From assembly GCA_026770025.1 (NCBI GenBank), contig JAMXDE010000005.1:1860001-1924000 (forward strand): 64,000 bases of DNA. The letters run 5' to 3'. The notes below the pieces were generated by a model. It saw nothing but the letters and a program-made list of their open reading frames with translations, had not been told where the DNA came from and did not search any database. Shown here one piece after another: positions 10,076 through 37,887 of the stretch. The DNA is from Craspedostauros australis. Lineage: Eukaryota; Bacillariophyta; Bacillariophyceae; Mastogloiales; Achnanthaceae. Every line of letters begins with the position of its first letter. The first letter of the stretch is position 1. The position numbers were made by a program, and so were the translations under genes.

Positions 10076-10487
10076 GTCAACAGGCATGAGCGTGTGGTAT
10101 GGTATAGTACTTGCGATACTCACATGGAGGGCAGAGAACAGAGCAGGAATGTAAAAGATGACACCATACCTTGTGCAGCAAAAGATAACTATGAAGAGAG
10201 GAAGGAGACGATTCGGCAACATACCACGAGTTCTCGAGTAACAATTGCGCGTTGATGCAAAAAGTGGAAGTGCCCCCAAACAGGATCGAACTGTTGACCT
10301 TCAGCTGACTCTTTGTTGTGATTATGAGACTGACGCTCTGCCTACTGAGCTATAGGGGCGCTTCTTGTCGTTCTTGTTGCCATAATAATGTATATATTAT
10401 TGCAAATATGCATGAATGCATGATGAGAGGACTCAAGACAGGTTGGTCGAATCTCGTGATGTCGCCAACACAAGTTGCCAGGCCTTT
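10076..10487. repeat. Left arm of inverted repeat carrying tRNA-Met
   Basis: Reverse complement of 10939-11349, about 95 percent identical by eye over about 410 bp including the tRNA and both flanks. Similarity decays at both ends. The arms are separated by a unique spacer of about 450 bp. Confidence 0.9.
10271..10359 (-). tRNA. trnM: tRNA-Met(CAT), elongator, with 16-nt intron
   Basis: Identical in sequence to the copy at 11066-11154 but on the opposite strand. Cloverleaf: 7-bp acceptor GCCCCTA/TGGGGGC with one G-T pair, D stem GCTC/GAGC, anticodon loop with CAT, T arm AACAG-TTCGATC-CTGTT and discriminator A. A 16-nt intron sits one base 3' of the anticodon, the canonical eukaryotic position. 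The T-loop is of the elongator type. The CCA end is not encoded. Confidence 0.93.
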
Positions 10488-10938: not shown

Positions 10939-11349
10939 GAGGCCTGGCAACTTGTGTCGGCGACATCACGAGATTCGACCAACCTGTCTTAAGTCCTCTC
11001 ATCATGCATTCATGCATATTTGCAATAATATATACATTATTATGGCAACAAGAACGACAAGAAGCGCCCCTATAGCTCAGTAGGCAGAGCGTCAGTCTCA
11101 TAATCACAACAAAGAGTCAGCTGAAGGTCAACAGTTCGATCCTGTTTGGGGGCACTTCCACTTTTTGCATCAACGCGCAATTGTTACTCGAGAACTCGTG
11201 GTATGTTGCCGAATCGTCTCCTTCCTCTCCTCGTAGTTATCTTTTGCTGCACGATCTATGGTGTCATCTTTTGCATTCCTGCTCTGTTCTCTGCCCCACA
11301 TACGAGTATCGCAAGTACCATACCATACCACACGCTCATGCCTGTTGAC
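10939..11349. repeat. Right arm of inverted repeat carrying tRNA-Met
   Basis: Inverted copy of 10076-10487. The few differences (for example near 10957 and 11236-11251) lie outside the tRNA, which is fully conserved. Confidence 0.9.
11066..11154 (+). tRNA. trnM: tRNA-Met(CAT), elongator, with 16-nt intron
   Basis: 73-nt mature tRNA plus a 16-nt intron at 11103-11118. Without the intron the cloverleaf is complete: acceptor 7 bp, D stem 4 bp, anticodon stem TCAGT/GCTGA with one wobble pair, variable loop AGGTC and T stem 5 bp. Anticodon CAT at 11099-11101. Internal A and B box sequences (TAGCTCAGTAGG and GGTCAACAGTTCGATCC type) should drive RNA polymerase III. Confidence 0.94.
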
Positions 11350-25386: not shown

Positions 25387-28300
25387 ATGTCATCAGTCTT
25401 CCTGCCACCAGACCAAACAAGGTTGGTGACGATCTGTGCTCATGTCGATCATGGCAAGACGACGTTGGCGGACAACCTCATCGAAAGCAACGGGATCATC
25501 TCCGAACGACTGGCGGGCACCATCCGCTATCTGGATTCGTTGGAGGAAGAGCAACGCCGCGGCATCACCATGAAGGCATCCGCCATTGGTCTGAAGCACA
25601 TGTACATATCCAAGCAAACCAAGATCGAGACGATACATCACCTCCTCGATTCGCCGGGACACACCGACTTCTCCACTGAGGTCAGCTCCTCCTTGCAGTG
25701 CTGCGATGGAACGCTCTTGGTTGTCGATGCCGTGGAGGGCATGTGCGCGCGGACGCATCAGGTTCTGCGAGAGGCGCACTCGCATCAATTGGTCCCCATC
25801 CTCGTCATCAACAAAGTCGATCGATTGTGCACGGATCTGTGCTTGTCCCCGGCTGAGGCGCATCTGAGGTTGAGGCGCTTGATCGAGACTGTCAATGCGA
25901 CGACGGCCGGCATGCTGCTGTCGCGGAATGCAGAGCTGGAGGAAGATCAGCCAGCTCCAAACACTGCAACTGGCAACGGCGTCAAAAAGAACAACGCTGG
26001 CGGCAGCAAACAAATGAAGGGCAAAAAGAAGCGGCAGCAGCAACAGCAGCAGAACCAAGCGGAAGACGAAGAAACCGAAGAAGAATCGAGGTGGACGTTT
26101 GATCCCGCCAAGGGCAATGTCATCTTTGCAAGTGCGTTGTACGGATGGGGATTTACGGTACCAGCGCTATGTCGCTCGTTGTTTCGCAACAAGACCATCC
26201 CCATCAAGCCGATGGTCATGAAGCAGTACATGTTCGGCGACTTCAAATACAAGGACGGAAAGGTGCTCAAATGGAAGGTCGGGGCTGATGCTGACAGCAT
26301 GTTTGCGGATTTCGCGCTCCAGCCATTGTGGGACATTTACGAAGGCGTCAGCGTGGCTTCAGTTGCGACAAGCGGCAGCAGCCAGCTATTCGCAGATGGC
26401 AGAACGGCATATGCTGCTACCGGCGGCAAGAACAGCTCCAAAGAGGAGAAGATCAAAGCAACCAGCACTGGGATTGATCGGGTGCTGGCGGCAATGCAGG
26501 AAGGATTCACATCCACTCATCACAAACCGCCGTCGACGTTGCCAGAAATCCAACAGATCCTCACGCGCACCGGATCCTCCGTCGAAGACTCTGTGCTGAG
26601 ATCACTGATCCGTCGCTACCGACCGCTCAGCGATACAGTCCTGGACGTTGTGTACGAACTGTGCCCATCACCGATGGAAGCCTCCACGAATCTCCGAACC
26701 ACAGCGCTCGCATTGAAAAAGGACGAAGATGCTTTGGCGGACCCAGGCTTCAACTCGATTCGGAATGCTGTTAAGTCATGCGACGTTTCTGCCGGCGCGC
26801 CCACCGTAGCACATATATGCAAGTTCATGTCGGTGGACCGTGCTCACATCCGGGATCCAGAGCTCGATGATTCCAATTCGAACATCATCCTCGGCCTTGC
26901 TAGAGTCCTTTGCGGGATGCTGCGCAGCGGCGACGACTACTTCGTCATGGGGCCCAAACACAACTTCAAGGATCGGCAGAAGCTCAGCAGCAAATCCATT
27001 CGTCTCTACCTCCTGATGGGGTCTGCCTACGTTCGCGTCAACGAAGTCCCCGCTGGTCATCTGTGCGCGGTTCAGAATCTGGAAGATGTGCAGCTCAAAA
27101 CGGCCACCCTCTGTGACCAGATTCACGGCATGCCATTGCAAGGCTTCGAACAAGGCGTGAGGCCGCTGGTCAAGGTCAATGTCGAGGCCACCGATCCAGC
27201 CGATATCGAAACACTCGAGCACGGTTTGTTGAAGCTAAGCCAGGCAGATGGTGCCGTCGAGGTGACCGCCACCGCGAAGGGTGAACGCATCTTGGCCTGC
27301 CTCGGCGAATTGCACCTGGAGCAATCCATCCTGGACCTGCAAAAGATATACTGCGGCAACGACATCAAGCTCCGCATCTCCGAACCCATTGTCGAGTTCG
27401 GTGAAACTACGGACTGGTTCGAAGGCGAGACGGACTTTCAGCAATTCTTCGATTCGTCGCTTCCACCACCTCGGCAATCATCGATACCGCCGTACAATGA
27501 AGAGGAGGGCCTGGACAGCGCTGTCTTGGGAAGGGCGAGGGTGGTGTTGACTGGTCGACCAGCAGCCATCAGCCTACGTGCCGTCCCACTTTCGTTGAAG
27601 CTGCACTCGGCGTTGAAGGATCAAACGTTATCGGAGGAGGCCCATGACGATGTTCTTGTCCTTGGAAAGGCACTTGGGTGTGTAGAAGCTGATCCTGCCG
27701 TTGTCTTTGAACAGATAGTGAAGTGCATCTCGTCCATCGATGACAATGGCAATGCGATGATGGAGGCGCCATCCCTCCGAGCTGGCGCCACCGCATTTGC
27801 CGTGCAAGCGCAACCGGACGGAGTGCCCGTCATGAGGAAAGAAAAGGAAGACGAAGTGGACGAAGAGAATGACAACGAAGCAGCAACGCCTACGGAAAAT
27901 GTCATGAATATTATGCGTAAAAGAATACAGCAATCGCAGTTTTCGAATAGCCACGTGAATGGTGGTGGCGATGAGATCACCGCAGAAGCACGAGAGGGAC
28001 ATGCGGCAGCCAATGCTGCGGCGTTGAAACTTTGGAATGAAAAGATGAAAGGCTCGCTAGCTGCGGGCTTCAAGTTGGCCATGAGTGCTGGCCCCATCTG
28101 CGAGGAATCGGTGCGCAGCGTGTTGATCGTTTTGGAGGCTGTTGAAGTTGCCGTTGAGACAGATAAGGAAGGAGAGCACCGATGCTCTAAGCCTCTGAGC
28201 GGAGGCATGATGCTGGGAGCATTGAAGACAGGCATCCGGTGTGCTTTGCTGTAAGTCGTTTCTATTTGCGCAGAGGATGGGAGCGAGTCGATGGATCGGT

Positions 28301-36209: not shown

Positions 36210-37002
36210 CGCGCTAGTAGGCACAGATGTTGCTGTTGTCGTTCTTGTTGTTGTTGGTGACGATGGACACCAATTCGGCGATTGTTGCAGTCTTGTGTGG
36301 ATTGTGATGTGTGGCAATCTCGTTTTATGTGAACACAGTAAAGCATTTGTGAAATGAAACACTCATGACACGCATTTAGCAGGAGAGTCGTTGTAACTGC
36401 GTTGTTTTTGCGCGATGAACACAATCACAAGGCAGCATCAACAGGCACAGCAACAACAACAGTCGCTGAACATGAGGGAACCCATCAACGAGAAGAAACG
36501 GTCGTTTTGCGGTGCGGTTTGTGAACCTGTTGGTATCAATTTTTTGAACGGTGTAAGTCGTGAATGACACCCTCGACCAGTTCGCATAATCAGCCAGACG
36601 AACACTCGGGCAAAATGCTCACGAAGTAGTCGTAGAGTAGACTACAGTAGCACAGCCCGTTGTAGAGCAGAGCACTCATCCGCGTGCGGAGACCGTTCTC
36701 TCGTGAGACTGTGTCAGAGTGACATAGTAGTCTTCTATCCATTCTCTGTCTCAATAACATGTTCATTTATTCGTACATATTGGTACCCAAGACCTCGCAC
36801 ATCCACAAAACTCATCACACTTCCATCAAAGCGGCACGCGATCATGTGATCGTCAGCGCTGCAGCTGTACCCGCACGTGTGCGGGACAGTCGCAGGCGTC
36901 ATTCTCACCGTGATGTCGCCTCCACCTCGTGGATTCTGTTGATTCAATTGCGATGGTGCGAGGGCCTTGCTTGGCTGTCTTCGTCCATCCGCAGCGTCGC
37001 AA
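36210..37002. other. Intergenic region, includes 3' UTR of the selenoprotein candidate
   Basis: The left part is upstream of the receptor-like gene. The right part is the 3' UTR of the minus-strand peroxiredoxin-like gene and contains the SECIS-like hairpin; a minus-strand AATAAA near 36767 could serve as polyadenylation signal. Confidence 0.6.
36846..36908 (-). promoter_or_regulatory. SECIS-like hairpin in 3' UTR
   Basis: In the minus-strand RNA, GUGA pairs with UCAC as lower stem. A symmetric internal loop with AUGAC on the 5' side and UGAC on the 3' side follows, which provides the tandem G.A pairs of a SECIS core. Above it is an approximately 12-bp helix (GCCUGC..CUGU with ACAG..GCAGCGC) and then CCC before the terminal hairpin GCACACGUGC. 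The quartet-to-apex distance is right for a SECIS. The apical AA is replaced by CCC, which can also pair with GGG, so the apex is non-canonical. It lies about 95 nt after the stop codon of the UGA-containing gene. Confidence 0.5.
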
Positions 37003-37887
37003 TCAGTTTGCACCAAAAAAGTTGGGCAAGGAGAACTGCGGGAAGGCGGGCTTCTTCTCGGCCTGTTCGTTGGCGATGTTCCACACCTGCTCAATGTCAG
37101 GATGATCGCCAGGAAGCTGATCGCTCCACCGGTAGACGATGTCGTTGCCGTTGACGACGAAGGTGCCTCCGAGACGCAGGACGCCGACGGGAACATCTCC
37201 AAACTTCATGTCCTTGGGGATGGGCGAGACTTTGGAAACGGAGGTGAGGTAGTTCCACCAACCCTTGGCACCGAGATCCGGTGCCGTCATGCGCTTCGTT
37301 GCCGCTTTCATTACCTCCGAGTCCTGCTCGTCGATGCGCGAGAATCCGGCGGCCTCGTAGGCGTCAAAGTCATAGCCGTCGACAAAGACGGAATCCCTTG
37401 GGATATCCGGGTTTTTCTCCAGGAAGACCGAGAGCTTGTCGGCGTCTCCGATGGAAATGAAGATGGGCCCCGCGACAGAATCCTGCGGGTTGGCGCGCTG
37501 GAGCTCACACCAAGAGTTGGCGTAAGTCCAGCAGTAGGGTCATCCGAGATGCCTCAGGAGGACGACGACGGAAGCGCCCTTGCCCATGAGGTCACCGAGG
37601 GACACCTTGTTGCCATCTACGCCCGTGAGTTGGACGGAGCGAAGGCCAGCCGCCGTCACGCCCTCTGGAATCACATCCGTCGGCATATCGCATGGTGTGC
37701 TGGTTGCGGTGGAAGGAAGAGCCGAAACGGACATGGATGTGGCAATGAATGCAATCGAAGTTGGTGTTGCCATCTGAGAATTTCTCGAGGTGGTCAGCGA
37801 TGCTGGCTGGAAGGCCGATACGCCAGCGACACCAGCGGCGACTGTCGCCAGACCCAGTAGGGCGACGCTCTTATTGTTGAACATCAT
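37003..37887 (-). CDS. Plastid AhpC/TSA-type peroxiredoxin-like (PRXL2-like) selenoprotein candidate, in-frame UGA
   Basis: One frame of 295 codons interrupted only by a TGA at 37540-37542; read as selenocysteine it gives 294 residues. The context is VVVLLRHLG-U-PYCWTYANS, where relatives of the AhpC/TSA antioxidant family have RHFGCPxC, so the UGA replaces the first redox cysteine of a CxxC (UxxC). Downstream, 178 codons continue without a stop and keep the thioredoxin-fold pattern (PIFISIGDADKLSVFLE, DSVFVDGYDFDAYEAAGF, GVLRLGGTFVVNGNDIVYRW). The N-terminus is a signal peptide ending VSA-FQP, the heterokont plastid cleavage motif. UGA is a normal stop elsewhere here, so recoding would need a SECIS; a candidate lies just downstream. 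Expected role: thiol/selenol redox protein in the plastid. It is transcribed divergently from TOP1. Confidence 0.85.

Follow-up and report, generated by a model that had tools for sequence, protein, structure and literature searches.

A predicted UxxC selenoprotein, probably plastid-targeted, in the genome of the diatom Craspedostauros australis

The window analysed here, a stretch of 64,000 nucleotides from an assembly that totals 74.8 Mb and comprises 90 contigs, carries on its minus strand an open reading frame interrupted by one in-frame UGA and followed by a SECIS-like element, in a genome that also holds the selenocysteine (Sec) machinery. The best reading is a UxxC plastid selenoprotein of a diatom subfamily close to SelU and SelL. 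Judged from the sequence, the selenoprotein gene is real with high probability, and we consider it likely that the whole reading is right, namely that a nuclear gene encodes a thioredoxin-fold protein made by UGA/SECIS decoding and imported into the plastid, where it would act through a UxxC redox site.

The reading frame and its UGA codon

The whole ORF (37003..37887, minus strand) runs from an ATG at 37887-37885 to a TGA stop at 37003..37005, at about the place where close homologs also end, and encodes 294 residues plus the stop if TGA116 is read as Sec. Translation of the minus strand gives 115 residues, a TGA, 178 residues and the TGA stop, with a single internal TGA; two open stretches, 178 and 163 codons long when counted from stop to stop, adjoin in this frame. 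The internal TGA (37540..37542, minus strand) is codon 116, predicted from the homolog alignment to be Sec at the first position of U-P-Y-C, while codon 119 (37531..37533, minus strand) is a conserved Cys, likely the resolving partner of Sec116, and is invariant in 24 out of 24 rows of our alignment A1, whose rows were picked for a readable site. The sequence-only reading had described, with no mention of the strand, a TGA interrupting an otherwise open frame within an RHLG-UGA-PYC motif and followed by 178 further codons. Translation bears this out on each point, the motif being part of RHLG-U-PYC-W and the 178 codons being both open and conserved.

The interruption is more than chance, since protein homology spans it: a search with the read-through protein returned 63 proteins (best E 2e-97), several of them aligned over 80-99% of the query. 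The species-named relatives among these 63 are diatoms (Cylindrotheca, Fistulifera, Attheya, Cyclotella, Pseudo-nitzschia and Nitzschia). Homologs thus run across the TGA, the alignments covering as much as 99% of the query, and the case in which they would end at this codon, raised earlier as an objection, did not arise. A profile search matched 228 proteins, 120 of which were listed, and the total of distinct homologs analysed among the matches listed was 142. The motif RH-[LM]-[GA]-x-xx-CW is intact in 41 of these 142, of which 31 place Cys and 10 place Trp opposite the UGA, which answers the earlier question of whether Cys or Sec aligns to this codon. The Trp is most likely a TGA mistranslated by gene callers; these homologs, those with Cys included, are known from protein sequences, and DNA of the relatives was sought in viral_contigs and genome_contigs, where none was found.

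An annotation fault is apparent in the other homologs, 101/142 among the matches listed having no intact active-site motif. Within the same 142, the GPxFxSIG motif is preceded by at most 45 residues in 87. Of these short models, 86 begin downstream of the UGA position, 48 sharing one start place; in the remaining 14 the site is altered, missing or unparsed. The automatic models P0016, P0039, P0054 and P0058 (from Fistulifera, Attheya, Cyclotella and Pseudo-nitzschia) have no active site. Four of the 14, P0049, P0050, P0055 and P0056, carry Q, Q, K and P in the UGA column and look like badly built starts, because none has the RHLG that should precede the site. The transcriptome-derived model P0011 starts one residue after the UGA site, suggesting that the mRNA keeps the codons that follow it.

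These data bear on the possibility of a pseudogene, in which a Cys codon would recently have mutated to the TGA, leaving the 115-residue peptide as the only product. A frame broken by one stop and the existence of Cys homologs would fit such a history, but the codons past the TGA are open and conserved, many homolog models start downstream of the site, and a paralog in the same genome (L007), only 36% identical, has a TGA at the same site (HLG-TGA-AYC). We regard a pseudogene as highly improbable. In a tree of 43 rows, built with the site masked and with Trp treated as Sec, 4 changes are required to explain the Sec/Cys states, and well-supported branches force at least 3 of them; the position of L007 is unsure because of its long branch.

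Equally hard to sustain is the idea that the TGA is spliced out, or is read as Trp or by ordinary read-through. Public gene models of four diatoms do lack the site and metagenome callers do report Trp, but none of 94 in-frame GT-AG excisions (at least 45 nt long, with donor and acceptor at most 250 nt from the TGA) keeps C119, so that the absence of codon-removing splice sites noted earlier holds for GT-AG introns within these limits. Against another residue, TGA also terminates the gene itself and Sec machinery is present (see below), and Trp would make little chemical sense at a CxxC-type site. The preferred reading of the UGA as Sec is supported by the Cys of homologs, by the Sec machinery and the other Sec genes of the genome, and by the SECIS-like element of the 3' UTR.

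Selenocysteine machinery and a candidate SECIS element

The genome was searched for the Sec machinery that the sequence-only reading had asked to be confirmed. It encodes a tRNA-Sec with anticodon TCA (UCA; 76.6 bits), SepSecS in two pieces (239.6 and 105.7 bits), eEFSec (C2:164009-165433), whose domain III scores 73.9 bits and was found in 0/14 prokaryote controls, and SPS2, itself with an in-frame TGA at its Sec site; the match to PSTK is weak (24.9 bits for a cut-off of 382). EF-Tu-like matches such as L010 and L011 were not accepted as eEFSec. Apart from the window gene, eight genes carry a TGA at a Sec site, including the paralog L007. Internal TGAs occur in 2/3 GPx matches, 1/2 Rdx matches (SelT type) and 1/12 MsrA matches, each at what we take, as for SPS2, to be the known Sec position of the family; one additional MsrA match has an internal TAA. 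Two genes with the SelU signature, L034 and L035, read RRPG-TGA-SLCREH and RRPG-TGA-FLCREH, and the other stops in the frame of L035, at least 32 codons farther upstream, probably mark an intron.

Downstream of the gene, a hairpin scan revealed a candidate SECIS (36846..36908, minus strand) with helix I (GTGA/TCAC), the quartets ATGA (36902-36899) and GA (36854-36853), a helix II and an apical CCC. Its spacings of 13 and 29 nt fit the pattern NTGA-(10-13)-CC-(15-39)-GA given in PMC2375036. The score of -13.9, obtained after several tries in which a loose scan showed the hairpin first and the rules were relaxed afterwards, was reached by 0/300 shuffles and a score of -13 by 1/300; over 128 kb of strand, the hairpins that score at least as well as -13 number three, the candidate among them. 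Stricter-geometry scans (unpaired AA or CC) found nothing in the window; of these scans, one was window-only, one missed the SPS2 element and one found it. The element is not perfect, because its apical CC is base-paired when the RNA folds freely (-40.1 vs -31.6 kcal/mol when held open), and an Rfam search of the 3' region gave nothing up to an E value of 10. With both quartets, both helices, the published spacing and a core heptamer common to Sec genes, we consider it a plausible SECIS.

This heptamer, GAATGAC (36898..36904, minus strand), lies 98 nt past the stop of the window gene and follows all nine Sec genes examined in the genome. It was first seen in the window gene, SPS2, SelT and MsrA, and then after both GPx, L007 and both SelU genes, giving 9/9 Sec genes, at 71 to 474 nt past their stops, vs 1/26 controls, where the stop is the first in-frame one past the match and may fall in an intron for multi-exon genes. 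The background is 10 copies in 128 kb of strand, the window copy included. Among genes with no TGA, the heptamer was found after 0/18 in a first set and 1/8 in a second (L039-L043 and L045-L047); L012 and L013, which score the same, may be near-identical copies. Left out of the count were L008, L014 and L016 (same genes as L009 and L032), L036 and L037 (no stop within 100 codons) and L038, whose Sec/Cys exon was unseen. The single control with the heptamer, L041, is AhpC-like with Cys at the site and carries the heptamer twice, 197 and 210 nt past its stop, which may reflect a relic SECIS or chance. The last exon of PRXL2 type in L038 has the heptamer 172 nt past its stop, and L034 and L035 have it about 200 nt past each stop. 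GPx L020 carries the heptamer but lacks helix II, and the helix II of L007, L035 and the GPx L021 is weak. For L007, the GAATGAC site at 71 nt, with a weak helix II of -4.8, was preferred to an earlier SECIS candidate 176 nt past the stop.

Two tRNA genes of equal length and equal score lie on opposite strands of the window, at 10271-10359 (minus) and 11066-11154 (plus). At 25426-25827 (plus strand), a translation-factor-type GTPase stretch within a 985-codon open frame scores 57 bits to a selB model, below the cut-off.

Protein fold and family

The AlphaFold2 model of the protein, built from a 35-row alignment, has a mean pLDDT of 80.4, with 176 of the 294 residues at 90 or more and 61 below 50, nearly all of the latter among the first 63. 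The order of its strands and helices, from which the fold was judged, is that of a thioredoxin-like protein, as had been proposed from the sequence. A strand (105-113) is followed by a helix (117-132), which places residue 116 just before the first long helix; in the model, Sec116 is thus predicted where thioredoxin-fold proteins classically have their redox site. The profile of relatives finds prostamide/PGF synthase as nearest solved structure, with its CVVC aligned to U-P-Y-C, at weak significance (E 0.028 over the whole chain, 2.3 for the best single stretch); a PDB search with the single protein sequence gave no match at E up to 1.

The assignment to an AhpC/TSA (PRXL2-like) family made by the sequence-only reading holds for the fold only. 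The AhpC-TSA profile PF00578 scores 16.5 bits, short of its cut-off of 26, and the active-site signature is unlike that of the two Sec-SelU/PRXL2 genes of the genome. The best family profile is NF040769 (SelL_rel_redox), at 44.1 bits (E 1.7e-11), below its 120-bit cut-off, and it matches all 24 rows of A1 at E 0.01. The two Sec of SelL are not seen here: the gene has a single internal TGA, and position 119 is Cys in the 24 A1 rows.

It could be argued that the protein is simply the known algal SELENOU. It shares with SELENOU the UxxC motif and the thioredoxin-like fold, and PF13911 matches 15/24 A1 rows at E 0.01. The window protein itself has no match to PF13911 at E up to 1, and is absent from the seven matches of a six-frame search of the genome with this profile. 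Moreover, RRPG-[UC]-xxC, which we take to be the SelU signature, is missing from the window protein (RHLG-U-PYC-W) and is found in L034, L035, L039 and L040, the first two of which carry RRPG-U-xLCREH. Two SelU genes are reported in Thalassiosira pseudonana (PMC2375036), and they may or may not be of the RHLG type. On balance identity with SELENOU seems unlikely. Since two SelU-type genes exist elsewhere in the same genome, the window protein is, as judged by signature and profile scores, best classified as a sister type and not a canonical SelU; it may already figure in earlier catalogues under a name such as SELENOL, SELENOU or AhpC_b.

Probable plastid targeting

The known rule for plastid import in diatoms is that the preprotein has a signal peptide and, after it, a cleavage motif in which Phe occupies position +1. 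By eye and hydropathy, the window protein has this organization: a predicted signal peptide (residues 1-25; 37813..37887, minus strand) has a hydrophobic core and ends in VSA, and is followed by F26-Q27-P28 (37804..37812, minus strand), the predicted start of an ASAFAP-like transit peptide with F at +1. The VSA-FQP motif reported previously is therefore present, and lies after a hydrophobic stretch. The paralog L007 has a comparable N-terminus, STTA-FTP. Among the matches listed, 45 proteins have at least 225 residues, and 36 of these, the window protein included, start with Met and a hydrophobic segment. In a loose test (a small residue and then Phe, within the stretch that comes next, which was permuted), the motif was found in 32 of the 36, as compared with a mean of 24.0 and a maximum of 31 in 2000 permutations.

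From these features the protein is probably targeted to the plastid. A genuine selenoprotein that is instead secreted, or resides in the ER or the periplastidal space, could be proposed, as targeting rests on a motif, the permuted control already reaches 24.0/36 and in one homolog (P0004) the likely cleavage site reads VVALQP and so carries Leu; but the observed count exceeds the best of the permutations, L007 has STTAFTP and the rule of Phe at +1 speaks for import. We judge a location outside the plastid to be rather improbable.

Elsewhere in the genome, a Sec-MsrA (L029; G000:C8:2268150-2268554) has the N-terminus LLLALCSAAAFSPS, with AAA-FSP, and looks plastid-targeted, making it a candidate for a second plastid selenoprotein; in the SelU-type L034, the N-terminus contains a hydrophobic stretch and, beyond it, an EAF motif. 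The plastid had been called an unusual place for a selenoenzyme. This stands insofar as plastid selenoproteins are uncommon in print, and not insofar as they would be unheard of, since two chloroplast-targeted Sec-GPx are described in Chlamydomonas (PMC3095285), whereas PMC8834552 finds no chloroplast transit peptide among the selenoproteins of Ostreococcus tauri; the Sec-MsrA of this genome is a further possible case.

From the above we infer a course of Sec incorporation, plastid import and redox cycling. Cytosolic ribosomes would decode UGA116 as Sec by means of tRNA-Sec, eEFSec and the SECIS hairpin about 100 nt past the stop, and the precursor, with its signal peptide and Phe-led transit peptide, would enter the complex plastid. 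Inside it, the two active-site residues of UPYC, Sec116 and Cys119, located where the first long helix starts, would form a selenol/selenylsulfide pair, which would most likely reduce a substrate of the peroxide, quinone or lipid-peroxide type and be re-reduced by thioredoxin.

Comparison with known systems

A selenol enzyme inside the plastid, if true, would link selenium supply to photosynthetic redox balance. A wider reading, which we offer tentatively and with some doubt, is that diatoms may have a plastid selenoproteome, in which a diatom-centred RHLG-[U/C]-xx-CW subfamily, with Sec and Cys swapped several times, would act in the complex plastid alongside a Sec-MsrA and perhaps a SelU of the same compartment; photosynthetic redox control would then depend directly on selenium, the family having been hidden by annotation pipelines that cut away the active site or start past it. 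Diatoms are credited with 20 to 44 selenoprotein genes in PMC7539508, and the words plastid, chloroplast and signal peptide occur nowhere in its main text (term search). Our literature search, with most subscription journals outside its coverage and its sources seen in part, found no plastid selenoprotein stated for diatoms.

SELENOU/PRXL2 (FAM213), including the prostamide/PGF synthase PRXL2B, resembles the window protein in its thioredoxin-like fold, in the UxxC or CxxC that follows a strand and, in a weak profile alignment, in GG and P-G-D motifs near the end; it differs in having RRPG-U-xLCREH instead of RHLG-U-xx-CW, and the window protein has a long plastid-type N-terminus. The motif of selenoprotein L is named UxxU. 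The SelL-related NCBIfam profile NF040769 is the best family match (44.1 bits vs the cut-off of 120), but SelL has two Sec two residues apart (PMC3316567), vs one Sec in the window protein. The Chlamydomonas chloroplast Sec-GPx are likewise nuclear-encoded, predicted plastid selenoproteins (PMC3095285), but belong to another family and to a primary green plastid. AhpC_b of Thalassiosira oceanica, with which the window protein may or may not be identical, is also a diatom UxxC selenoprotein, with an AhpC-TSA domain; it is reported in one diatom and with only prokaryotic Cys homologs (PMC7539508). The window gene is a fresh example of the known use of UGA for Sec.
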